Assembly (NCBI RefSeq): GCF_023015805.1
Contig: NZ_JALKBA010000002.1
Span: 248,001 to 312,000 of the forward strand
Direction of reading: 5' to 3'
Length of the DNA stretch: 64,000 nucleotides
Origin: Cellulophaga sp. F20128
GTDB lineage: Bacteria; Bacteroidota; Bacteroidia; Flavobacteriales; Flavobacteriaceae
The notes beneath the pieces were generated by a model, which saw nothing but the letters and a program-made list of their open reading frames with translations, searched no databases and had not been told where the DNA came from. Shown piece after piece: positions 1,454-53,587 of this stretch. A program made the translations under genes and the position numbers. How positions within the stretch are numbered: position 1 is the first letter of the stretch; the number at the start of each line of letters is the position of its first letter.

Positions 1454-2932
1454 ATGAGTAACAACCCGGAACAAAAAAACAACTTGGCAGAGAACGATAC
1501 AATTGAGTCCACTGAAAATGTTAAAAGAGATTTTCAGGGACTTATGGGCAGTGTTAAAAAGTTTTTGACAGAGCTTTTAGATATTCGAAATAATACAGAT
1601 CAGGAGGCAACAAAGGCGTCCATTATTGCAGATATTCCTTTTAAAGGGCATACCTCTTGGATTTTAATTTGCTCTATATTTATTGCATCCGTGGGTTTAA
1701 ATGCAAACTCAACAGCGGTTGTAATTGGCGCCATGTTAATTTCGCCCTTAATGGGTCCTATCTTAGGAATTGGACTTTCCTTGGCAATAAATGATATAGA
1801 TACATTGCGTCGTTCGTTAAAGAATTTTGCGGTAATGGTTGTCTTAAGTGTTTTAACGGCTTGGTTGTTTTTCTCCTTCTTTCCGTTAAAAACAGATTCC
1901 TCAGAATTGCTAGCTCGGACAGCTCCAGACATACGAGATGTGTTGATCGCATTTTTTGGGGGTCTGGCCTTAGTTATAGCTCGGGCAAAAAAAGGAACCA
2001 TTGCAAGTGTAATTTTTGGTGTAGCCATAGCAACTGCCTTAATGCCGCCCTTGTGTACCGTGGGATACGGATTAGCTATTTGGAATACAGACTATGCCCT
2101 TGGTGCTATGTACTTATTTATCATAAACACCATTTTTATAGCCTTACCAACCTTTTTAGTTTTAAAATTTTTGCGTTTCCCTATGGTGCGCTATGCGAAT
2201 TCGCAACGGAGAACCTTAATTTCTCGAATAGTTTCTGTTGTCGCTATAGGAGTTATGATACCCGCAGGGATAACATTTTGGAATGTATTTGAAGAGTCTC
2301 TTTTTATGAAAGAAGCCCATAATTTAATTGAAAATACTATAGGAAAGTATCAGTTTAATGATCAAGGAAGGTATTTGGAAGAATTAACAACCATTGATTA
2401 TGTTAAAGATGGGACTTCTAAAATTGAAATTGTTTGTATGGGAGATGAACTGATCCCGGAAAACATTATTAATACATGGCGTGCTCAGAAAAATGAAAGT
2501 GAAAATAACCATTTAAAAACAGCAGAGTTGCGGATAATTCAAAATGGAAAGGATGATTCTGAACAGAAGTTTAATTATGTAAATGAGTTGTATGAAAGCA
2601 AAAAAGCGGAATTACTTTCTAAAGATGAACGTATTAGTTTTTTGGAAACAGCGCTTTCTGATATGAGTAAAAGATCGTTAAAACAAATTCCATTTATTGA
2701 AATTAGTGATGAAGCAAAGGTGAATTATGAAGATTTGCAAGAAATTGATTTTTCATACACCCTAAAAAATAATTTTAAAAAGATAGATACGGTTCCTGTG
2801 TTTGACATTATTTGGAAGGATGTAAAAAAAGTGAACAAGGAAAAGTTAGCGGCAGATACACAAAAGCTAGCTGCTTGGCTAAAGTTGCGTTTAAAGGATG
2901 ATAAAATTGAGGTACGGAGTAATTATAAGTAG
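1454..2932 (+). CDS. DUF389 (TIGR00341-type) membrane protein
   Basis: A 492-residue inner-membrane protein. After a polar N-terminal segment of about 65 residues come roughly six hydrophobic helices to about residue 280; they include the family stretch GAMLISPLMGPILGIG and a conserved ALMPPLC. The C-terminal 200 residues are soluble and rich in Lys/Glu. The transported substrate or role of DUF389 proteins is not established. It ends the manC-linked cluster. No N-terminal DUF389 regulatory extension beyond the usual size was noted. Confidence 0.85.
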   Translation: MSNNPEQKNNLAENDTIESTENVKRDFQGLMGSVKKFLTELLDIRNNTDQEATKASIIADIPFKGHTSWILICSIFIASVGLNANSTAVVIGAMLISPLMGPILGIGLSLAINDIDTLRRSLKNFAVMVVLSVLTAWLFFSFFPLKTDSSELLARTAPDIRDVLIAFFGGLALVIARAKKGTIASVIFGVAIATALMPPLCTVGYGLAIWNTDYALGAMYLFIINTIFIALPTFLVLKFLRFPMVRYANSQRRTLISRIVSVVAIGVMIPAGITFWNVFEESLFMKEAHNLIENTIGKYQFNDQGRYLEELTTIDYVKDGTSKIEIVCMGDELIPENIINTWRAQKNESENNHLKTAELRIIQNGKDDSEQKFNYVNELYESKKAELLSKDERISFLETALSDMSKRSLKQIPFIEISDEAKVNYEDLQEIDFSYTLKNNFKKIDTVPVFDIIWKDVKKVNKEKLAADTQKLAAWLKLRLKDDKIEVRSNYK

Positions 2933-3003
2933 AATATAAGTTTGAGTATTTTTAGTGAGAATCATGATTAGGAATGGACTTTGCAATTCTTTAGATTCTG
3001 TAT

Positions 3004-3993
3004 TTATTTGTTGGTTTCATTTTTAATAATGTTGAATAGATCTCTATTTATTCCAACAAAAATCTTGGAATGTGCAACTTCTTTTTCTTTTTTGGTTAGA
3101 TTCGTTTTTTCAAGAAAAGATTTTTTAATTCCATCTCGAATGGTTTCTCTTTTGTAATCTCTTCTTTGTGATAATTTTTGATTTGTATATTCAAAAATTA
3201 TAAGATTACAATCATCTTTTAGTCTCTCACCAATTATTTCCCACCAGATTTTATCTGTTTTTCCTAAGGAAGAACCATAAATACAAATCAAGTTTGCCGA
3301 AAGTATGTGTTGTTTGCATTGATCATCAATGGTGTGTTGCATTGCCTGATTGCATTGACTTTTTACAAAAGCATTTAAAATTTCAGGCTCATTATGAAAT
3401 TCTTGATTTTTTATTTGGGAAATGTCATTTACACCCATCACCATTGAATTATCTATATATCCATGTATATGTTGGATTCCATTATAATTTATTGGTAGAC
3501 CGTTATGAGTGCCTATTTGTATTGATTTTTCTTCTGCTCTAATTAGTTTTTCGAAAGTGTTAGTGTAATTGAATGTGATAACATAAGTAGACCAATGATG
3601 ATTTTTCCATTTGGTTCTTAGTTTAGATACCTTATTTTTTTGAGCTTCAGAAAGTGACCTCTCAGGAAAAGTTAGATATTCAAAAAAAATATCTTTTTCA
3701 ATTTTTAATAGATCGATTTTTTTTTCCTCTTCTTTTAAGTAGTCAGCTAAATTGTCTCCAATATCCTCAAAAATTTCTATAAATTCATTTGTTGATTTTA
3801 TGTCTTGCGTGTATTCACCTAACATGGATTCTAAATCAGCCCAACTTTCTTCATTTTGAATACTCTTCTTTAAATTGGAAATAGATTCACTTTTAGAATC
3901 AATGTTATTGTAGTATTGATAGAAATCAGGATATCTTGTTTTTAAGTTTAGATTTACATCAAAGCCATTTCCTAGTAGGTAAACAATTTTCAT
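3004..3993 (-). CDS. abiH: AbiH family abortive-infection protein
   Basis: The N-terminus reads LLGNGFDVNLNLKTRYPDFY, the hallmark of the AbiH family (PF14253), first described as a phage-resistance protein in Lactococcus. Later motifs fit: FNYTNTFE (about residue 141), an HIHG segment and LICIYGSSLGKTDKIWW near residue 235, which together suggest a nucleotide-binding SIR2-like fold. That fold assignment is inference. The gene stands alone, opposite to the DUF389 gene and in line with mlaF, without other defence genes nearby. Its base composition looks more AT-rich than its neighbours, as expected of a mobile defence gene. A TAnnTTTG box lies upstream, inside the 3' end of mlaF. Confidence 0.85.
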   Translation of the reverse strand: MKIVYLLGNGFDVNLNLKTRYPDFYQYYNNIDSKSESISNLKKSIQNEESWADLESMLGEYTQDIKSTNEFIEIFEDIGDNLADYLKEEEKKIDLLKIEKDIFFEYLTFPERSLSEAQKNKVSKLRTKWKNHHWSTYVITFNYTNTFEKLIRAEEKSIQIGTHNGLPINYNGIQHIHGYIDNSMVMGVNDISQIKNQEFHNEPEILNAFVKSQCNQAMQHTIDDQCKQHILSANLICIYGSSLGKTDKIWWEIIGERLKDDCNLIIFEYTNQKLSQRRDYKRETIRDGIKKSFLEKTNLTKKEKEVAHSKIFVGINRDLFNIIKNETNK

Positions 3994-31925: not shown

Positions 31926-34900
31926 TTATTTTTTAGTAGTGATTCGTGTTCCTTCGCTATGGCTGCTAAACTCTGGTGCATACATACTTTGTATGGTGGT
32001 AATACCCGCGCTAAAATCTCCTGCATTGTTCACTCGTAAGTCGTACTCAAATACATAAACTCCCTTGGGTATATAGTCAAAAAAGAAATTGGTGCTAGCA
32101 TCCTTGGTACTTTCATAATAGCCCAAACCGTCTTGCCATTTGTATTGAGACAACACTTGTAAAGGCTCTAAACCTGAGGCGCGCATATCTTTCATGTGTA
32201 TAAATTCCATAGGTCGGTCTGCTCTTAATTCAATTCGTACCCTAACTAAATCTCCAACATTTAACTGTGTGTTATTTACAATTTCTACCAACTGCTCTCC
32301 TGTATCCGTATTGTTTTTTAAGAATAACTTTTTCTTGAGTTGTAAGGGTGTTTTAGCGGATGTTATTTTGTCTAAATCTTCAAAATATTGCCAATATAAT
32401 GATCCCCAAGCAATACCGTTTCCTTTTTTACTCAGTTGTACCTCGGCCATTTCTGGTGCAATCTCGTTTGCATTCCAAGAAGTTTTGTAATACCCAGTTG
32501 CCGCTTCCACTTTTACGTTTTCTAAGTTATTAGGATCTATTTTTTTACCGCCAACCAATACATCAACGGCGTCAGTAACAGATATCCAATCACTTCCTTG
32601 TAAGAGTAAGGCATATACAGCTTCGGTGGTTGCTTTGGTTGTTTTCCATTGGTTGGTTTGCTTGTTTTTTAACAACCATATTTTTAAGTTATCAATGGTT
32701 TCCGTATTGTTTTCTATTTCAGCAAAGGCTTCAATTAGTAAAGCCTGAGTTTCAATTGGGGCCTGGTGCCAATACCATGAGGCTGTATTTTCTTTCCAAT
32801 ACATACCCAATTCATCCGAAGTAATACTGTTTTCTTTCAATGATTTTAGAATTTTAGCCGCTGTTTTATTGTCTTCCATTCGGTGAAGACTTAGGGCTAA
32901 TAAACCTTTGGCATACAAACTGCGTTTTAGCCAATACTTCTGAGCTTGCTCTCTGTAATAGGTGGTTATTTCTTGTGTCTTTTTAGATGACTTTAGGTTC
33001 GGAAAAAAACTACGCATATACAAATAATGCATTTGAGTGTAACTTAAATGATCGTCATTTATATTGGAAGCGTGTTTTTTCATTTGCTCATATTCAGCAA
33101 CAAATTCCTTGTCTAAATAGGCAATTGCTTTTTCTACCATTTTGGTTACCCCCTCAGCTTTAGTGCTTGCGTTTAAGTGTTCTAAATGTCCAAGACCACT
33201 AATAATATGTTGCGTTATATAACGGTTCTCTTTTCCGCCTTTAAACCATGGCCATGCACCGCTATGCATTTGATTGGCCTGTAATTTGGTTAAGGCATTG
33301 GCCTGCTCACTTTTCATCTTATTTAAATTAAATAATAGAGCAATCCGCTTTTTTTGTTCGGTTTCTGTTTGCGCATCACGAAGCCAAGGTGTTTCTTGAA
33401 TTAGGATTGACTGTAATTCGGCATTTTTTTCTAAGTTGCTCAGCAAGACATCAGAATTTGCCCATTGCTGAAAGACTTCCTGAATTCGTGGGTTGTCATT
33501 GGCAATATGCGTAGCAAGGGTGTTGGCATAGTACTTAGAAAAAAGCTGTTCACTACAGTCGTATGGGTATTCCATTAGATATGGTAACGCTTGTACTGCA
33601 TACCAAGCAGGATTAGAAGTAATTTCTAAAGTAAGCTTGTGGTTTTTTAAGGTAGTAGACTTATTATTTTTTAGTTTGTCTAAAGTGAATTTTTTAGACT
33701 GATTACTTCTAACCCACATTGGTAGCGTTTCCGTAACCAATATTCTGTTGGTAAGTACAGGTAATACGTTTTGTTCCCCGTCGCTATAATCAGCTGTTTT
33801 TGCAATTACAGTGTATTGTACTGCCTGAAGATTTTCTGGAATTTCTAATTCCCAAGAAACTTGTGTATTTCCTTTAGCATCAATTGTAAAAGGGTGTTCA
33901 CCTAGGGAAGAATTTGGCATTAGAGTAGCCCTAATATCTTTCCCTGTTATTGCATCTTTTAACTGTAAAGAGGCTATTCCAGTCAAGCTTTTATCTGTAA
34001 TATTCGCTATTTTACTACTGAAAATAATTTTATCACCTTCGCGTAAGAATCGAGGTGCATTGGGGATCACCATCAGTTCTTTTTGGGTTACGGTTGTTAA
34101 TGTGGTTGTTGCACTTTCTAAACTTTTGGTGTGTGCTAATAATTGCAATTTCCATTTGGTTAATGCCTCTGGTGTAGTAAAACGAAACGAAACATTCCCA
34201 TCTTCATCTGTAAGTAGCTGTGGAAAGAAGAAAGCGGTTTCTTGTAAGTTTTTACGAATTAGCACTTCGTTTTCTTGTTGTTTTTTGGTTTCAGAAGAAG
34301 TATAGTTGAGCTCCTTAGGAGTTCGTTCTAAATCTAAAGCGGCACCAACAACAGCACTTTTCTTTTGACTTCCAAAAGCAGTAACTACCTCTTCTAAGGA
34401 GTCGCTTTCATTTTGTGTTCCTATTCCCCTAATAAAAACCGCATCATCATCTCCTATAGGTGCAGATCGGTTGAATGCCACCATTCTAGGGTTGTAACCT
34501 ATGCGAAATCCAAACCAATTAAACGTGTCAAATCCTGGGTATGAATACTCTGATGTTCTTGAGTAGGAATTGTATACGCTAAAATTTTGTGTGGCGTAAT
34601 TGTTATAGGCATTACTAGACACGGTAGTATAGTAATGTGGTTTGTATACGGGATTAAAATTCCAGGAATGATTTCTAAATTCATCCAGGGACGCATCATA
34701 CATGCTTGCTAAGATTTCAGCACTTACCTTATCTCCTTTTGGACCTTTAACTTTAAACGACCAGGTTTCATCTGTTCCGGGTTGTAATTTATTTCTAAAT
34801 GTCACGGTTTCTATGTTTATATCTGTCTTTGGGTAGGGTACACTAATAGGGGTACTGCCAGACACAAAAGAATTGTAAGCAGAGAAACTATAGGAGATAG

Positions 34901-37900
34901 AAAAACCACCTAAATCTTCTTTGGTCACTGGTATCGATATTGTTTTACTCCCATTGCTTAATCGTATAATTTGGGTATCTACCAGTTTTTTACCTTTTTC
35001 AATAAAGAGGGTTATATGCAGATCCTTAGCAGCAGAAAGTAGCGTTAGTTTAAGGTCGTCACCAACCTTATAACTTTCTTTATCGGTCTTACTTTGAAAT
35101 AGCTGGTGGTCTGCTAATTTTTTATCAGAATCACTGAATAGAGAAGTAATGACTTTGTCCGTTACCGTTTGTCCAAATTTATCCTTTGCCGTGGCCAGGA
35201 TGATGTATTTTCCAGAATCCCATTTTTTTAAATTAGGTAGTAGTATTTCTGTTGATTGTCCCGTATCAAATTTAGCGTCCCATACAAGCTTTCCATGATC
35301 CCACTTAGAAGAATCATTATTGTTGTCATAGGTTTCATAGGGAAATAAATTTCGAAATTGATCTGCTTCAATTTTATAATCGGGAGCCGTCCATGGTCTG
35401 ATGCGTTTTACATGATCAGGGGCAACAAGCTTGTAAATTTTCAAGACACCTTTAGTAGGTACAAACTGTCCGTTTAAATTGTTTGTTTGAATGGTGAAAC
35501 TTGCATTTTTTTTGTCTTTGTCTGTGTTTTCTGCAACAGCAATAGTAGCCGTTAGGCTATGGTAACCAATACGTACTATGGTTGTAGTGCTTTTTGTTTC
35601 TCCATTAATGTCTGTGACATCGGCCGTAATTTCATAATTAAAAACGGGCAAATTTTCTTGGCTTACGCTAGTATCAGGTTGTGCCTTAAATGTTATTTCA
35701 TAGGCTCCTTCTGCATTTGTTTCAGTTTCTCCATGTTTTATCTCTTGTGGTTCACTAGAATTATAAGGCCATCTCCAATAGTACCAATTTGGGTATTGTA
35801 CCAATCGTTTTACCGTATAAACAACCTTTGCATCGCTAATAGTGCTACCAGCAAAAGCAGTAGCTGTCCCCTTTAGGGTGATGGTGTCATTTACCTTGTA
35901 TGTTTCTGTGACAGGCTCAAATGAAGTCTCAAATTTTGGGCGCTTGTATTCTTCAACTGAAAAATAAATTGTGTTTTTGGTAGTCACCGTCTTTGCATTT
36001 ATTTCTAAATAATAATTGCCAGTTAGCCCATTGTTGGGCAGTATAAATTCGCCGCTTACCGATCCATATGCGTTGGTAGTAAACTCTTTTTCTATTACTT
36101 TTTGACGGTTTACATCAAACAAACTTATGGTAACTATCGTATTGGGTAGCACTTGTTTGTCACCAAAGCTTTTTATTAAAATTCCTTTAAAATACAAGGG
36201 TTGCCCTGGTCTGTATATACTTCGGTCCGTAAATAAGAATGAGGCATAGGTTTCTTTTGAAATGGGGTTGTTGTCATACCTATCATAGATGTAATATTTG
36301 CCAAAAACGGCATAGTCATCCGCGTGTGAAACCGCTGCTTCAATATCATACCACCTTTGGTTTGTTTTGGGAATATGAACCATTCCTAAGGCGTTAGTTA
36401 CCGAAACTTGCTCTTTTTCTGGTAGATTGTAATCGGTTTTATAGGACAGTTTTACCTTTGCGCCCTGCAGAGGAATTCCAGTATTCCTGTCTACAACTTG
36501 ATAAATTTGATCCCTATCTGTGTTGGTTGCAATAAATCCAATATTGGTAACTTGAATTGTAGCATAAGCGAAGGTTTTAGTGTTAGTATTAGGTTGTGCT
36601 AGAATTAGAAGTTCACCAAGCCCTAATTGAGGAATAATAGTTTCTGTTGTATGGTTTTGGTAATCTTCTTCGTTTTTTAAAACGGATTGCCAGGTTTTAA
36701 TGGGTTGTAAGGATTGTATAAAATCCAATTTTTTAGCCTCCTCGTAGATTTTGCTTAGGTTTTTCACCTCTTTAGATGAAATTTTATAAGCCGTAAAATT
36801 AAGATCATTTAAATTTTTGTAGGATACCAAAACCTTAGAAGGCTGGTTTATTGGAATATATTTTTCAGTAGTAATGTGTAATTCTGTTTGTAGAATATTG
36901 GCTTTAAGGTCTTTGCATTTTTTGGTAGCGGAACTATTGGGAAATTGTGAAATTACAGCATCACATATTTTTAGTGCCTCTTGTTTTTTCCATTGATATA
37001 TTTCATCGGTACTGTTAGCGGTATATTTATCTCCCATAGTATTGTACAAACTAGCAATTTGGTAATTGTACAACCCAGAAACGGCATCATTTTTATAGAT
37101 AGCCAACATCTTCGTTAGCGTTGCTAGGTAATGTGTGTCTTTAGTTGTGAAAGTGGCATTTTGATATACAAATTGCAGTCTTTCGAGATCTACTTCTACA
37201 AAAGCACTAGAGGAGCTATCTTTCTTATGAAACTTTAATAGCTCTTGGTAGATTTCTAAAGCCTTTGATTGTAGAGAGGTTTTGTCAGAAGTGTCAATGG
37301 GGAAATCAATAAAATCCGAAGCCGTACACAATGTATTTGGGTCGCTAATTTCAAATTTATCGGCTGGCCTAGTAATGCTGTTTTCATCTGTTTTATAAAA
37401 TAATAAAGCGGTATGTGCTAAAACATCAAACAAAGTAGGTCTATAGGTTTCAGAACCTTTTTGTTGATGTAATATGCTATTGAAATCTGATACTTTCACT
37501 TGTTGTAATTCCTGACTTTGTTGTAGCGAGGCAGTAAAGTGGGTGTTGATCTCATGAAATAGTGTCGTTAAATCCCAAGTTCTAAAATCTACGGAATCAA
37601 TCTTGGTTTCCGTTTGGGTTCTGTTGTAAAATTGATATCTATTTTCTTGAAAGAATTGCCAATATAAATTCCCCAAATAGCTTTCTAAAACATTTTTAGT
37701 AGGGAAGCTACTCTGTGATATCTCCGCTTTAAAATCGTTAACTATGGTAAGCACTGCATCCTCTTCCAAAATCATAGTATATTTTGAGATATGCAATAAT
37801 GCTTTAATAATTTCTGGCGACTTATTTTCTGCCTTTGCTTTATGAGCAATGGTTTGTACTGTTTTTAGTGCAGATTTTGTAAGCCCTTCTCTTTCTTGCT

Positions 37901-38000
37901 TTTGAACAGCTGCCCATAAAGTATCGTAATCATTTGTTTCTTGTGCCATTGCCATGGGTGCAAATAAAATTAATGCGAGTATAACTACTAAATTTTTCAT
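31926..38000 (-). CDS. alpha-2-macroglobulin family protein
   Basis: A very large (2024-residue) secreted protein with signal peptide MKNLVVILALILFAPMAMAQ. It shows macroglobulin (MG2-type) repeats, with SIYRPGQPLYFKGIL near residue 600, an A2M domain (TPEALTKWKLQLLAHTK, about 1250) and the thioester motif Cys1482-Ser-Glu-Gln1485 in YPYDCSEQ. Bacterial A2Ms are thought to trap proteases in the periplasm. An odd insert at about 1186-1215 reads IRGIGTQNESDSLEEVVTAFG, which recalls the plug and TonB-box segment of SusC-type receptors (see findings). No PbpC-type partner is next to it. Confidence 0.9.
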   Translation of the reverse strand: MKNLVVILALILFAPMAMAQETNDYDTLWAAVQKQEREGLTKSALKTVQTIAHKAKAENKSPEIIKALLHISKYTMILEEDAVLTIVNDFKAEISQSSFPTKNVLESYLGNLYWQFFQENRYQFYNRTQTETKIDSVDFRTWDLTTLFHEINTHFTASLQQSQELQQVKVSDFNSILHQQKGSETYRPTLFDVLAHTALLFYKTDENSITRPADKFEISDPNTLCTASDFIDFPIDTSDKTSLQSKALEIYQELLKFHKKDSSSSAFVEVDLERLQFVYQNATFTTKDTHYLATLTKMLAIYKNDAVSGLYNYQIASLYNTMGDKYTANSTDEIYQWKKQEALKICDAVISQFPNSSATKKCKDLKANILQTELHITTEKYIPINQPSKVLVSYKNLNDLNFTAYKISSKEVKNLSKIYEEAKKLDFIQSLQPIKTWQSVLKNEEDYQNHTTETIIPQLGLGELLILAQPNTNTKTFAYATIQVTNIGFIATNTDRDQIYQVVDRNTGIPLQGAKVKLSYKTDYNLPEKEQVSVTNALGMVHIPKTNQRWYDIEAAVSHADDYAVFGKYYIYDRYDNNPISKETYASFLFTDRSIYRPGQPLYFKGILIKSFGDKQVLPNTIVTISLFDVNRQKVIEKEFTTNAYGSVSGEFILPNNGLTGNYYLEINAKTVTTKNTIYFSVEEYKRPKFETSFEPVTETYKVNDTITLKGTATAFAGSTISDAKVVYTVKRLVQYPNWYYWRWPYNSSEPQEIKHGETETNAEGAYEITFKAQPDTSVSQENLPVFNYEITADVTDINGETKSTTTIVRIGYHSLTATIAVAENTDKDKKNASFTIQTNNLNGQFVPTKGVLKIYKLVAPDHVKRIRPWTAPDYKIEADQFRNLFPYETYDNNNDSSKWDHGKLVWDAKFDTGQSTEILLPNLKKWDSGKYIILATAKDKFGQTVTDKVITSLFSDSDKKLADHQLFQSKTDKESYKVGDDLKLTLLSAAKDLHITLFIEKGKKLVDTQIIRLSNGSKTISIPVTKEDLGGFSISYSFSAYNSFVSGSTPISVPYPKTDINIETVTFRNKLQPGTDETWSFKVKGPKGDKVSAEILASMYDASLDEFRNHSWNFNPVYKPHYYTTVSSNAYNNYATQNFSVYNSYSRTSEYSYPGFDTFNWFGFRIGYNPRMVAFNRSAPIGDDDAVFIRGIGTQNESDSLEEVVTAFGSQKKSAVVGAALDLERTPKELNYTSSETKKQQENEVLIRKNLQETAFFFPQLLTDEDGNVSFRFTTPEALTKWKLQLLAHTKSLESATTTLTTVTQKELMVIPNAPRFLREGDKIIFSSKIANITDKSLTGIASLQLKDAITGKDIRATLMPNSSLGEHPFTIDAKGNTQVSWELEIPENLQAVQYTVIAKTADYSDGEQNVLPVLTNRILVTETLPMWVRSNQSKKFTLDKLKNNKSTTLKNHKLTLEITSNPAWYAVQALPYLMEYPYDCSEQLFSKYYANTLATHIANDNPRIQEVFQQWANSDVLLSNLEKNAELQSILIQETPWLRDAQTETEQKKRIALLFNLNKMKSEQANALTKLQANQMHSGAWPWFKGGKENRYITQHIISGLGHLEHLNASTKAEGVTKMVEKAIAYLDKEFVAEYEQMKKHASNINDDHLSYTQMHYLYMRSFFPNLKSSKKTQEITTYYREQAQKYWLKRSLYAKGLLALSLHRMEDNKTAAKILKSLKENSITSDELGMYWKENTASWYWHQAPIETQALLIEAFAEIENNTETIDNLKIWLLKNKQTNQWKTTKATTEAVYALLLQGSDWISVTDAVDVLVGGKKIDPNNLENVKVEAATGYYKTSWNANEIAPEMAEVQLSKKGNGIAWGSLYWQYFEDLDKITSAKTPLQLKKKLFLKNNTDTGEQLVEIVNNTQLNVGDLVRVRIELRADRPMEFIHMKDMRASGLEPLQVLSQYKWQDGLGYYESTKDASTNFFFDYIPKGVYVFEYDLRVNNAGDFSAGITTIQSMYAPEFSSHSEGTRITTKK

Positions 38001-42480: not shown

Positions 42481-43026
42481 ATGAAAACCCTCCGTTTTTT
42501 TTGCAGTATACTTTTTTTGTTGCTTACTTTTTATTCTTGTATTGAAGAACAAAATTTTAATCAAACTGAAGCTATTGTCATTACACCTACTATAGAGGCC
42601 AGTATTTTTTATTTTGAGACCACAGAACAGCTCATTAATGATTCCCCGGGAATATTTTACTCAAACGACTTTAATTTTGATGCCTTTAAAACTGATTATT
42701 TTTCAGATAAGGTTATAGAAGGTTCTATAAGCTTCCAGTTAGAAAATACCACCAGCAAACCTGCAAGAGTAACCATAGAATTGGTAGATGATGATGGGGT
42801 GGTTTTGGATACAATTGAGTTAGATATTGAGGCAGAAGCGACTGAAACAACCGATGTAGAAATATTCTATGGAGGGGCAAGTATGCGATCCTTAGATATT
42901 ATAAGAAATACTTCTGGTTTACGGCTTAGTGCAAATAACTTAGGAGACAATTCTAGTGTATCTAGTATAGCCAACCCTAAGCTTATTTTTAGGTCTAGTG
43001 CCAGATTTAAAGTCAGGGTACGATGA
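42481..43026 (+). CDS. hypothetical lipoprotein
   Basis: A 181-residue protein with lipoprotein signal ending FYSC (Cys20). The mature part is rich in Ile/Val/Thr/Glu and looks like one or two beta-sandwich domains. No family is recognised. It ends 4 bases inside the start of the DUF5723 gene, so the two are translationally coupled; a third secreted-protein gene follows. Confidence 0.75.
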   Translation: MKTLRFFCSILFLLLTFYSCIEEQNFNQTEAIVITPTIEASIFYFETTEQLINDSPGIFYSNDFNFDAFKTDYFSDKVIEGSISFQLENTTSKPARVTIELVDDDGVVLDTIELDIEAEATETTDVEIFYGGASMRSLDIIRNTSGLRLSANNLGDNSSVSSIANPKLIFRSSARFKVRVR

Positions 43027-44450
43027 GAAATAGCTGTTTTTGTTTTCTGTTTGTATGTTGTACTATGTTTGTTTGTGCCCAAAACAAGCAGTTGTTGTAT
43101 GATTTTAATGAAATTCCCCAAGCCTTGCTACTAAATCCAGGGGTAGAAATTGGGTACAAGAGTTATGTTGGAATTCCCTTATTGTCGGGGATTTCTTTTC
43201 AGGCAGGGTCTAGTGGAGCAAGTGTGAACGATTTTTTTGCAAATGACGGTATAGATATTAATGATAAAATTAGAGAGCGTGCACTGTATGGAATGGGTGT
43301 TAGAGATGAGTTAAGTGGTACGTATCAATTAGAGCTGATAAGTGTTGGTTTTAGAGGAAAAAAGAATCCTGATAATTTTTATTCCTTTGGGCTATATAAC
43401 GAAGGGGATGCTATAGGTTATTGGTTTAAAGATTATGCCATTTTAGGTTTTGAAGGAAATGCAGGTCGTTTAAATCAAAGGTTTGATTTGTCGCACTTGA
43501 AGACTAGGGGTGATATGGTCAATGTATTTCACTTTGGCTTAAATAAAAGAGTAAATAGTGATCTTGTTTTAGGAATAAGAGGCAAATTGTATTCAAGTAT
43601 TTTTTCATTCAAATCAACTAAAAATAGCGGGTATTTTGTAACTACAGAAGGTCAAAATAATTTATTGGCTTCTACCTTGGTAGCCGATATGATGGTGCAA
43701 ACAGCAGGAATAGAAAGTTTCAGAAAGGCAGCAGATGATAACACCGGAATTGGGAATGTTTTTTCCAAAAGAGGATTATTTGGGGGCGATTTAGGAGTAG
43801 GTGTAGATTTTGGACTTACCTATAACCTAAATAAACAAACCGTAGTAACCGCCAGTATTTTAGACCTAGGGTTTATTTCTCATTCTGGAGATGTAAAAAA
43901 TTATGTTTTTAAGGGGCAAACAACCATAGAAGGCGTAGAAGTAAAATTACCGGAAGACCTCGTTAATGCAAGTGCAGATTTTTGGCAAGATTTAGTGGAT
44001 GAGGTGAAAGAGTTATTGCCGTATGAAGAAAACAATGATTCTTATATATCATTTAGACCAACAAAACTTAATGGTTCAATTCGATATAATTTTGGAGAAC
44101 AAATACCTTATCGAGATGATTGTAATTGTTCGGTTGTAAAAACTAAAAATAATCTAGGGTATGCCAATGGCGTTGGTGCTCAGATTTATGTGATAAATAG
44201 ACCAAAAGGTCCGCAATCGGCATTGACTGCATTCTATCAAAAAAACTTTGGTAAAAACATAGGACTTAAAACTACCTATACCATAGACAAGTTCTCTGCA
44301 ACCAATATAGGTTTTGGTGCTAATTTTAATATAGGCCCTGTAAATATTTATGCAATGGCAGATAACCTTTTGTCATACCAAAATATAGCAGCTTCTAAGT
44401 ATGCTTCTTTTCAGTTAGGAATTAATGTCATATCTTGGGGCAAGAATTAA
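43023..44450 (+). CDS. DUF5723 outer-membrane protein
   Basis: A 475-residue protein with signal peptide to about residue 20 (FVCAQ). Alternating-pattern strands and an aromatic end point to an outer-membrane beta-barrel related to PorP/SprF-like proteins. The DUF5723 pattern is seen in LLYDFNEIPQALLLNPG, GFRGKKNPDNFYSFG and HFGLNKRVNSDLVLGIRGK. It is overlapped by the preceding lipoprotein gene and followed by a secreted protein. A surface complex is plausible but not shown. Confidence 0.8.
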   Translation: MRNSCFCFLFVCCTMFVCAQNKQLLYDFNEIPQALLLNPGVEIGYKSYVGIPLLSGISFQAGSSGASVNDFFANDGIDINDKIRERALYGMGVRDELSGTYQLELISVGFRGKKNPDNFYSFGLYNEGDAIGYWFKDYAILGFEGNAGRLNQRFDLSHLKTRGDMVNVFHFGLNKRVNSDLVLGIRGKLYSSIFSFKSTKNSGYFVTTEGQNNLLASTLVADMMVQTAGIESFRKAADDNTGIGNVFSKRGLFGGDLGVGVDFGLTYNLNKQTVVTASILDLGFISHSGDVKNYVFKGQTTIEGVEVKLPEDLVNASADFWQDLVDEVKELLPYEENNDSYISFRPTKLNGSIRYNFGEQIPYRDDCNCSVVKTKNNLGYANGVGAQIYVINRPKGPQSALTAFYQKNFGKNIGLKTTYTIDKFSATNIGFGANFNIGPVNIYAMADNLLSYQNIAASKYASFQLGINVISWGKN

Positions 44451-50500: not shown

Positions 50501-53500
50501 TTAGAATGTTACACTTAAGTTTACACCATATAATCTAGTAGGAGGTGTTTGTGATTGAGTTCCTACACCAACTGCATTACCAGTTGTAAAGTTGAATTCA
50601 GGATCTGTATATACATTATCTTTTGGTCTAAAGGTGAATAAATTTCTACCAAAAACACCTAAACTCATTTGGTGTATGCCCATTTGATCTAATACATCGC
50701 TATCAAAATTATAAGCCAATGCAAGTTCTCTAATTTTTAAAGTAGTTGCATCTGTTATATAGTTTTCTCTAACATCACCATAAGAATCCCAAAAAGCATT
50801 ACCACCACCAGAAGTTAATCTGTTTGTGTTTGCTGTATAGCCACCTGATCCATTAGAATAGGATGAATTTGGAAAAACAAATGGTTGTCTTCCAGCTGTA
50901 ACACTGTGTTGAGTTAAACCTGTGAATTCTAATGCATTTACAATATCGTTAAAGAATACATGACCTGTTCTGTAATCAGCAACTGCATAGATACTAAAAT
51001 TTTTGAATAATGTAAACGTAGTGTTTAAACCTACAACATAATCTGGAGCTGTTTTACCTTGTATGGTTAACTCACTAGATTGTATTGGGTCTCCATCGCC
51101 ATCTACAATTACTCTACCTAAATCATCTCTTTCATAAGCAGATGTTCTTATTAATGGAAAAGGTTCTCCTAGTTTAGCAACAACTTGTGCGTCACTAAAA
51201 CCACCAATGTTTAATTCCTCAACACCATCAGCTAAAGATATAACTTTAGACTCGTAACCAGTGTAGTTTACACCTAAGTCCCACTTAAAGTTTTCAGCTC
51301 TAATTATGGTACCTTTTAAATCAATTTCTAAACCTGTGTTTTCTACTTCACCAATGTTTATTAAACTACTAGAAGCACCTGAAGCTAGAGAAACGTTTAC
51401 AGGGATTATTTGGTCTGTAGAATTTGTTTGGTAAAGAGTAACACTACCGTTTAAACGACTTCTAAATAAACCAAATTCTAAACTACCTTCGTAAGAAGTT
51501 GTAAATTCTGGGTTTAGTTCAGGATCGGCATCTCTACCAGATTGACTTAAACCAGCTATTGGGCCATATGGAAAGTTTCCTGGAGCTGAAAAGGATTGGT
51601 TAATTGCATAAACTCCTGGATCACTACCTGTTTGTGTAGCATTAAAACTAGCTTTTAAATAGCTTAATCCTTTGCTGCTTGTTATTGCAGGGAAGGCATC
51701 AGAAGCTACAAATGAAACACCAGCACCTGGATAAAAGAAAGATCTATTGTCTGAAGGCAATGTAGAAGACCAGTCGTTTCTAGCTGTTGCATTTAAAAAG
51801 ATATAATCTTTAAATCCTACTGTTAAATCAGCATAAACACCTATTTTTCTATAATTACTAGATCCTTCACCACCACCTAATTCTCCTGTTCTTGTAGAAA
51901 CATTATAGAAATCTGGAATAATTAAATTGCTACCACTTACATTGACAGATTTAGAACTTTCAATTCTTACGTTATGACCTAAAGTAAGGTTCAACGCAAA
52001 ATTTTCATTAATGTCTTTGTCGAAATTCACTAAGATATCATTGTTGAATCTCGTTGAATTTGAAATTTGATCTAAAGTGCTAGCACCATAAGGATCCATT
52101 TCTGAATAGGTATTTGCTAAATGAAATGCATAAGTAAATGCACCGAATTCTCTTTTGAAATTGCTGAAACCAGCAGTATAACCAGATCGTACCGTTGCCT
52201 TAATCCAATCATTTATATGATAAGTAACATCGGTTAAAACATTGAATTCTGTGTATTCACTATTTTCTCTCTGAGTATCAATGATAAAGTAAGGATTCTC
52301 GTAAAAACGGTAATACGAAACTTCATTTCTTGTAAACTCTCCAGTTCTCCAGTTTTTCATTTCTGCTAAAGGAATGTGTAATGGCGTATTTAAAACGTTC
52401 CAGTATACTGGTCTGCCTTGACGGCCACCGCTTCCAACATTGTCAGAAAAAGATCTAAAGAAAGAAACGTTTCCGCCAACTTCTAATTTATTAAATTTCT
52501 TACCAGCTTTTAAACGCATGTTGGTTCTGTTGTAACGATCTTTTGGTACAGTTCCCTCAACATTGGTTTGGTCTAAAGATAAAAGGAAATCACCATCTTT
52601 ATCACCACCACTTAAGGTCACACCGTGACGCATTGTGCTACCCGTGTTAAAGAAATTTTTGTGATTGTTCTTTATAGGAGTAAAAGGTACTAACCAAACA
52701 CTACCATCATCTAAAGTTTCACTAGCTTCTACTAGTCTTCCATCATATCTTGGACCCCAGTTAACATTTTCTAGTGGGTACAAAGTCCCATCAGGAAAAC
52801 CACCAGCACCAAATTGATCTTGAAGTTCAGGTAAATAAGCAACTCTTTCTAATTGGTATGATGAATCATAAGTAACTTTTAATTTACCATCACCACTTTT
52901 GGTTGTAATTACAATTACACCATTCGTTGCATCAGATCCGTATAATGCAGAAGCGTTTGCTCCTTTTAATACACTGATGTCTTCAATATCGTTAGGGTTA
53001 ATTCTGTCTAACACACCTCTACTTGAAGGGAAACCATCTACCACTATAAGTGCTTCGTTGTTTCCTAATAGTGATCTGTTACCACGTAATACAACTCTAG
53101 TAGAAGGATTAACACTGTTATTGGTTGTGTTAATCTGTAAACCAGAAACTTTACCAACCATTGCAGTAGCAACATTTGGTGATTCTGTTTTGGTTACGTC
53201 ATCTCCTTTAACTGATTGTACGGAATACGATAATTCTTTAGGCTTTCTTTCGATACCCAAAGCGGTAACAACAACTTCTTCTAACGCTTGAGCATCTTCT
53301 TGCATCTGTAAGTCAATTACGTTAGAAGCTCCGATAGTACGTGTTGTTTGTTTTTGTCCCACATACGTGAATACTAAAACTTGTCCAACACTTCCGGAAA
53401 TAGAATACTCACCTTCAAATCCGGTTTGTGTTCCATTTTGTGTTCCTTTTACTAAAATGTTTACTCCAGGTAGCGGTAAGCCATCTTGATCGGTGACTTT

Positions 53501-53587
53501 ACCTGAAACCGTTTTTTGCTGTGCAAAAGTTAAGTGCACAATAAACGCTAAAACAAGCGTTAAGATTCCTCTTTGTTTTGTTCTCAT
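50501..53587 (-). CDS. SusC/RagA family TonB-linked outer-membrane transporter
   Basis: A 1028-residue TonB-dependent importer. Signal peptide to about residue 22 (TFAQ), then a carboxypeptidase-regulatory-like domain (26-95, VSGKVTDQDGLPLPGVNILV), TonB-box region LEEVVVTALG (102-111), a plug domain (115-240, with VVLRGNRS and IVVDGFPSS) and a 22-stranded barrel ending in an aromatic (SVTF). First gene of the susC-susD-lipoprotein operon. No glycoside hydrolase, protease or regulator lies nearby. Confidence 0.95.
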   Translation of the reverse strand: MRTKQRGILTLVLAFIVHLTFAQQKTVSGKVTDQDGLPLPGVNILVKGTQNGTQTGFEGEYSISGSVGQVLVFTYVGQKQTTRTIGASNVIDLQMQEDAQALEEVVVTALGIERKPKELSYSVQSVKGDDVTKTESPNVATAMVGKVSGLQINTTNNSVNPSTRVVLRGNRSLLGNNEALIVVDGFPSSRGVLDRINPNDIEDISVLKGANASALYGSDATNGVIVITTKSGDGKLKVTYDSSYQLERVAYLPELQDQFGAGGFPDGTLYPLENVNWGPRYDGRLVEASETLDDGSVWLVPFTPIKNNHKNFFNTGSTMRHGVTLSGGDKDGDFLLSLDQTNVEGTVPKDRYNRTNMRLKAGKKFNKLEVGGNVSFFRSFSDNVGSGGRQGRPVYWNVLNTPLHIPLAEMKNWRTGEFTRNEVSYYRFYENPYFIIDTQRENSEYTEFNVLTDVTYHINDWIKATVRSGYTAGFSNFKREFGAFTYAFHLANTYSEMDPYGASTLDQISNSTRFNNDILVNFDKDINENFALNLTLGHNVRIESSKSVNVSGSNLIIPDFYNVSTRTGELGGGEGSSNYRKIGVYADLTVGFKDYIFLNATARNDWSSTLPSDNRSFFYPGAGVSFVASDAFPAITSSKGLSYLKASFNATQTGSDPGVYAINQSFSAPGNFPYGPIAGLSQSGRDADPELNPEFTTSYEGSLEFGLFRSRLNGSVTLYQTNSTDQIIPVNVSLASGASSSLINIGEVENTGLEIDLKGTIIRAENFKWDLGVNYTGYESKVISLADGVEELNIGGFSDAQVVAKLGEPFPLIRTSAYERDDLGRVIVDGDGDPIQSSELTIQGKTAPDYVVGLNTTFTLFKNFSIYAVADYRTGHVFFNDIVNALEFTGLTQHSVTAGRQPFVFPNSSYSNGSGGYTANTNRLTSGGGNAFWDSYGDVRENYITDATTLKIRELALAYNFDSDVLDQMGIHQMSLGVFGRNLFTFRPKDNVYTDPEFNFTTGNAVGVGTQSQTPPTRLYGVNLSVTF

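Follow-up and report, generated by a model that had tools for sequence, protein, structure and literature searches.

Why should an alpha-2-macroglobulin (A2M) protein carry, in the middle of its chain, peptides that resemble the N-terminus of a SusC-type TonB-dependent transporter? The question is raised by one gene in a 64,000-nucleotide stretch of the Cellulophaga sp. F20128 genome, the whole of which is referred to here as the window. This gene (31926..38000, minus strand), recognized by its ORF translation and Pfam domains, encodes an A2M of 2024 amino acids. Within it, FIRGIGT (residues 1189-1195; 34416..34436, minus strand) resembles the IRIRGxxS of the SusC plug in a PSSM comparison with shuffles, and SLEEVVTAFGSQKKSAVVGA (residues 1201-1220; 34341..34400, minus strand) resembles the SusC TonB box and the next plug residues, as judged by alignment and genome search; DAVFIRG starts at residue 1186 and SLEEVV at residue 1201. 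The original prediction of a TonB-box- and plug-like segment inside the A2M holds, as both peptides lie within 34330-34455 and the SusC that they match best is encoded in the same genome. The motifs that it ascribed to the window's own SusC-like transporter, our comparison protein (PF13715, Plug and barrel by Pfam; 50501..53587, minus strand), are likewise present, namely the TonB-box-like ALEEVVVTALG from residue 101 (53255-53287, minus strand) and VVLRGN in the plug, starting at residue 165.

The position of the peptides within the A2M is informative. The domains PF01835 (MG2), PF07703, PF00207, and PF17973 (bMG10) all exceed the Pfam cut-offs. From the domain order in solved bacterial A2Ms, we infer that the stretch between A2M_BRD (PF07703, residues 971-1097; 34710..35090, minus strand) and PF00207 (residues 1255-1340; 33981..34238, minus strand), used here as residues 1166-1248 (34257..34505, minus strand) and lying immediately upstream of PF00207, would be the bait region. 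According to the part of PMC4498604 available to us, bait regions are mostly disordered and A2Ms are activated by cutting there. Because the domain order places the peptides in the bait, their likely meaning moves from docking to baiting. The sequence also holds a CSEQ thioester motif (CXEQ; residues 1482-1485; 33546..33557, minus strand), and its N-terminus, MKNLVVILALILFAPMAMA, appears by eye to be signal-peptide-like without a lipobox cysteine; the protein is a Type I A2M, probably located in the periplasm. With the Type I bacterial A2Ms of Escherichia coli (ECAM/YfaS) and Salmonella (SaA2M) it shares MG2, the bait-region domain, PF00207, bMG10, the thioester motif, and the position of the bait in the domain order. 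Unlike them, it holds SusC N-terminal sequence in its bait and does not have the PBP1c gene directly beside it: the adjoining genes encode a phospholipase D (PLD) family protein and a Mur ligase, and pbpC is not among the direct neighbours. The linkage of A2M and pbpC is reported for a number of bacteria and is not universal, as far as the accessible text of PMC5764988 goes. A DUF5723 protein of unknown function is also encoded near the A2M gene (window 43023-44450, E 3.6e-108). The A2M query gave only one match in this genome; the bMG10 profile gave two, the second of which was missed by the A2M query.

The resemblance to SusC was assessed over the whole bait. Against the N-terminal parts of 59 SusCs, the 83-residue bait reached its best score of 87 with a SusC of its own genome, L097 (Smith-Waterman, BLOSUM62), whereas shuffled baits (n=300) gave a best score over the same 59 of 43.4+-5.0 with a maximum of 65, the reversed bait scored 54, and 89 windows of the same length elsewhere in the same A2M scored 52 or less. 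The four top matches were all from the same genome, which had supplied 18 of the 59 SusCs. At the DNA level the bait and L097 are also similar, which does not prove a copying event. Ungapped PSSMs were then built from 14 SusCs of this genome, and each bait was scored against 200 of its own shuffles. The IRG motif of the window's bait exceeded 200 of 200 shuffles, whereas 1 of 200 equalled its TonB-box motif, in which one V is missing. By the same PSSMs, this bait has no V, D, or Y plug piece. In Pfam searches of this A2M, neither Plug (PF07715, at E up to 1) nor the barrel (PF00593) was matched. The two pieces stand in the order IRG, then TonB box, the reverse of that in SusC.

A search of 12 genomes with the 33-residue segment returned 40 non-self matches, each weak alone (best E 0.018), of which 39 fall in ORFs of 983-1182 residues and one in an ORF of 704. 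In the subset of 13 that was checked (3 in G000, the window's genome, and 10 in G300 and G305), every match borders a Plug match on its N-terminal side, which is the position of the TonB box. In the portion of PMC7782687 at hand, the TonB box of a published SusC is given as DEVVVTG and is required for function. Chance resemblance or shared low complexity, which could be argued from the shortness of TonB-box-like strings such as LEEVV and from the one shuffle in 200 that matches the ungapped TonB-box score in the window, is very improbable, since the whole-bait alignment score lies far beyond the shuffles, all 13 of the genome-wide matches that were checked fall on TonB-box positions, and orthologous baits contain plugs.

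The last of these points comes from a survey of A2M relatives. In the host class, 212 of 295 genomes had a bMG10 match and yielded 60 regions, mostly top-scoring and from varied families; in the host family, 163 of 299 genomes yielded 30 loci and 100 further regions; and the best 80 of 167 loci of A2M relatives were used. Baits were cut by pattern from 300 sequences, of which 283 were obtained and 17 dropped, and collapsing identical baits left 260 distinct ones (209 from the host family and 51 others), where family membership of L002-L081 was assigned by name, some being named Bacteroidia only, and where the same genome was possibly counted twice. The TonB-box motif exceeded all 200 shuffles in 114 of 209 host-family baits versus 2 of 51 others, the ALxGxVAGV (V) piece in 77 versus 1, the IRG (R) piece in 42 versus 1, and the two plug pieces farther downstream in 32 and 34 baits versus 1 and 0. 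Fifteen of the 17 dropped sequences were read later and 14 were scored, with the TonB-box motif found in L163, L172, L173, L323, and L346, and later plug pieces in L348. Once ten of these dropped baits are added, 3 of which carry the TonB-box motif, its frequency outside the host family becomes 5 of 61. The thioester motif was found in 95 of 103 relatives (92 by the first pattern and 3 added later), a set in which a genome may again be counted twice; the pattern did not find it in 8 of the 103, including L042, L050, L068, L024, L038, and L064, and the first three of these have SusC-like baits.

The 70 host-family baits of at least 105 residues, some of which are long merely from a failed anchor (4 match A2M_BRD), contain by Pfam PF13715 in 43, PF13620 in 42, Plug in 32, and the barrel PF00593 in none. 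The remaining Pfam matches in these 70 were CooC_C (8), A2M_BRD (4), TTR_TEN1-4 (3), CILP (1), and DUF3244 (1), and the CooC_C and CILP profiles also match the N-terminal domain of the window's SusC. The baits of some relatives, L237, L325, and L349 among them, read like an N-terminal domain followed by a TonB box and then a plug, as in SusC. Many A2M relatives share larger parts of the N-terminal module of SusC-type transporters (PF13715, TonB box, and PF07715) than the TonB-box-like and IRG motifs of the window's bait. Unlike those transporters, the A2M baits are without a barrel, their pieces are embedded in an A2M, and the short baits mostly have them in reversed order. A profile check had been proposed along with the original prediction, and it shows that many orthologues carry plug domains at the same site, often with the SusC N-terminal domain. 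The segment is therefore neither absent from orthologues nor devoid of plug similarity, yet the nearest A2Ms of the same genus mostly lack the extended motif.

The short baits bear on the idea that the C-terminal domain of TonB binds the TonB-box peptide, which would link the A2M to the inner-membrane energy complex and either localize it or pull on its bait. Of the pieces kept in the 134 short host-family baits, the TonB-box motif is the most frequent (68 baits), and its form LDEVVVVGYG is closely kept, with E in 67 of 68, in baits selected for high scores. It contains the DEVVV core, which is important in a SusC according to the part of PMC7782687 available. In 17 of the 134, however, the V piece stands alone, and in 3, the window's included, only the R piece passes the strict test. 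These figures come from a table covering 204 of the 209 host-family baits, short baits without an upstream anchor being left out, and for L042, L050, and L068 there is overlap between the V and R windows. Moreover, 6 of 33 plug-bearing baits (L023, L078, L081, L247, L249, L332) score no TonB box within 150 residues upstream, that of L081 being marginal (4 of 200 shuffles); L070, positive by shuffles, was left out as a false case with a Plug score of -2.4 bits, which makes the total 33 and not 34. Nor are plug and IRG pieces known to be required for TonB binding. Given the baits that retain other parts of SusC but lack a TonB box, docking fits less well, and we regard it as unlikely. SusC peptide content is the common denominator of the baits, and the TonB box alone is not. 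What stands of the original interpretation is accordingly the notion of a plug-like remnant, given the plugs in orthologues, and that of domain shuffling, given the captures described below; docking to TonB is less well supported, and none of the results speaks to docking at an outer-membrane barrel.

The order of the pieces separates long from short baits. Counted over all 209 host-family baits, long baits keep the SusC order (TonB box before V in 18 of 19, TonB box before R in 16 of 16, V before R in 19 of 19), and short baits are mostly reversed (V before TonB box in 24 of 28, R before TonB box in 13 of 13, R before V in 8 of 8). The window's bait follows the reversed pattern of the short ones. 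Such a reversal does not fit simple decay of one inserted module, and may go back to a single ancestor with rearranged pieces or to small captures that happened more than once.

Within the genus the mimicry is sparse. Among 13 distinct same-genus baits that were scored (two more duplicate L062 and L063, and L199 was left out), only L205, for the TonB box, and L202, for the V piece, exceeded all shuffles. Five of the six nearest baits (L192 and L194-L197) have EEIVxxEE-like strings that do not go beyond all shuffles, and L198, from the same-genus genome G295, has a bait identical to that of Cellulophaga tyrosinoxydans L063. Since most same-genus baits are without the extended motif, the window's peptides may have been gained recently or may be a rare case of retention. 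Some A2Ms outside the host family have SusC-like pieces. In f41, a family of another order of the same class, PF13715 lies between A2M_BRD and PF00207 in L163 (31 bits) and before PF00207 in L180 (29.5 bits), both slightly below the cut-off of 32.2 bits. The bait of L163 carries the TonB-box motif together with an IRG piece whose score is matched by 2 of 200 shuffles. Among relatives at the order level, L172 and L173 carry the TonB-box motif, the latter with the IRG piece as well. In each of four genomes (G506, G508, G454, G365), A2Ms of this kind gave two or three matches. For G506, G508, and G454, the bait of the weaker-matching copy holds the fuller SusC module (L340 vs L260, L347 vs L261, and L349 vs L280, respectively), and in G506 and G508 two copies lie on one contig, about 7-9 kb apart.

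How the SusC parts came to lie in the baits was approached through a tree of 32 A2M plugs and 59 SusC plugs, where 'SusC' denotes a plug without A2M sequence after it. The tree has 96 columns and many open forks, with the bootstrap not fully settled, and it requires 13 label changes (12-14 in bootstrap; at least 5 forced by starred branches). Its SusC rows comprise 18 from the window's genome, L033 from the flank of a related A2M locus, and 40 from ten genomes, and the sampling is similarity-biased as the 40 were chosen by their similarity to two A2M modules. The window's own SusC shares a starred set with two further SusCs and six plugs from A2Ms. A single origin of all A2M plugs in one clade was rejected (AU p 0.000274). 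As there is no single clade of A2M plugs, several captures are indicated, and the view that A2M baits took up SusC sequence is well supported. The plug module of L337, the A2M of G522, shows 65% identity across 134 residues with a SusC-sized plug-bearing ORF of the same genome, and everything else listed in the ten genomes searched is less similar to it. Within this sample, 8 of the 32 A2M plugs score nearer to a SusC and 24 are nearest to another A2M, so that many modules were probably inherited from a shared A2M ancestor.

The baits were also compared for rates of substitution. In 17 close pairs, picked by eye and with Ks > 1 in several, bait Ka/Ks was 0.10-0.57 in 16, the remaining pair (L237/L293) having saturated Ks, and in every one of the 17 the bait had a higher Ka than its neighbouring domain. 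Over 12 full-length pairs, among which L203/L204 contains some non-bait residues, Ka/Ks was 0.12-0.55 in the bait versus 0.07-0.15 in the rest of the protein, with the higher Ka in the bait in 10. The whole bait is constrained yet fast-evolving, a figure that applies to the bait and not to the SusC pieces singly, as low bait Ka/Ks is also found without clear SusC pieces (L194/L196, L194/L197, L062/L210). Exchange with SusC genes could be another source of the low values. In several pairs the bait has a higher Ks than the adjacent domain; compared with the whole protein the excess is clear only for L006/L046. In that pair, bait Ks is 0.42 against 0.21 for the rest of the gene (1 of 42 windows is as high), a doubling as expected of bait exchange.

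These data bear on a second alternative, in which SusC fragments drift into a tolerant bait, are refreshed by exchange, and decay, serving no function. The window's genome is rich in plug-bearing genes (58 Plug matches at E up to 10), the bait evolves fast, pieces are missing in many lineages, and the raised bait Ks in several pairs would be in keeping with refreshment. However, the long baits hold N-terminal parts of SusC, never the barrel and, by Pfam, no clearly unrelated domain. By our estimate, the N-terminal parts of about 50 SusCs make up less than 1% of a 4.2-Mb genome. The bait Ka/Ks range, the reversed short pieces, which homologous exchange would not yield, and the occurrence in a second order of the class (L163, L180) also speak against passive drift, and we consider it improbable.

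We favour, with a probability of about 0.55, the explanation that the bait mimics SusC for proteases that cut the periplasmic part of TonB-dependent transporters. The host-family bait has repeatedly acquired sequence from the part of SusC that faces the periplasm (N-terminal extension, TonB box, and plug), in some cases larger modules and in others short peptides; the window's bait has two short peptides in reversed order. A periplasmic protease attacking the exposed TonB box, the N-terminal domain, or the displaced plug of the transporters would cleave the equivalent sequence in the bait, and the cleavage would trigger collapse of the A2M and binding of the protease via the CSEQ thioester. 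Peptide content and not fold would be decisive, so reordering and loss of pieces would be tolerated. Replacing the bait changes the protease that an A2M traps, as stated in the available parts of PMC8267569 and PMC9918453, and one SusC had its plug outside the barrel in closed states in vitro, with plug cleavage in an earlier crystal structure attributed to plug ejection, according to the text at hand of PMC7782687. It is this combination, a bait swap that alters the trapped protease and a SusC plug that becomes exposed, that favours the substrate mimic. The decoy function is what we infer from the resemblance, position, recurrence, and several plug origins computed here.

Several considerations weigh against a decoy. 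Homologous exchange with many SusC genes after a first capture could account for the baits with selection being unnecessary, and a folded N-terminal domain with a plug makes a worse bait than a disordered stretch; the AlphaFold2 models of a plug-containing segment (L078, mean pLDDT 48.6) and of the window's segment (41.5) are too weak to bear on this. The motif-free baits, in the same genus and among the short host-family baits (46 of 134 have none of the TonB-box, V, and R motifs), mean that the mimicry is dispensable in many lineages. We found no description of a SusC-like A2M bait in the open-access literature, most subscription papers being beyond the search; one match on plug domains concerned a zinc transporter, and none of the A2M papers that came up mentions a TonB box or plug in its title or the start of its abstract. 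Another protein related to proteolysis also has plug pieces: L082 (G000:C26:361000-366000; ORF 2100-3983, minus strand, 627 residues) is an M56/BlaR1-type peptidase (PF05569) with three C-terminal Plug matches, and none of the open-access records listed for plug and M56/BlaR1 contained the plug term.

The engineered baits of tabula rasa human A2M and of E. coli A2Mcap offer a parallel, in that a chosen substrate sets the protease trapped (PMC8267569 and PMC9918453, from the parts available). Unlike these laboratory designs, the natural lineage seemingly draws its baits from its own envelope proteins. The broader proposition that flavobacterial A2Ms form a self-mimicry defence, with baits remade again and again from the side that the cell's own abundant transporters turn to the periplasm, so that any protease able to attack those transporters springs the trap, has in our view roughly even odds. 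Little is known of what bacterial A2Ms target in nature. If self-mimicry is true, the bait would be a readable record of periplasmic protease targets and, if baits copy the proteins under attack, their sequences would name the targets that are protected. One could then test what happens, in the periplasm, to SusC plugs and TonB boxes that have been displaced, and the engineers' placing of a substrate in the bait would have a natural counterpart, reached in this family through the repeated capture of one gene family into one site of another.
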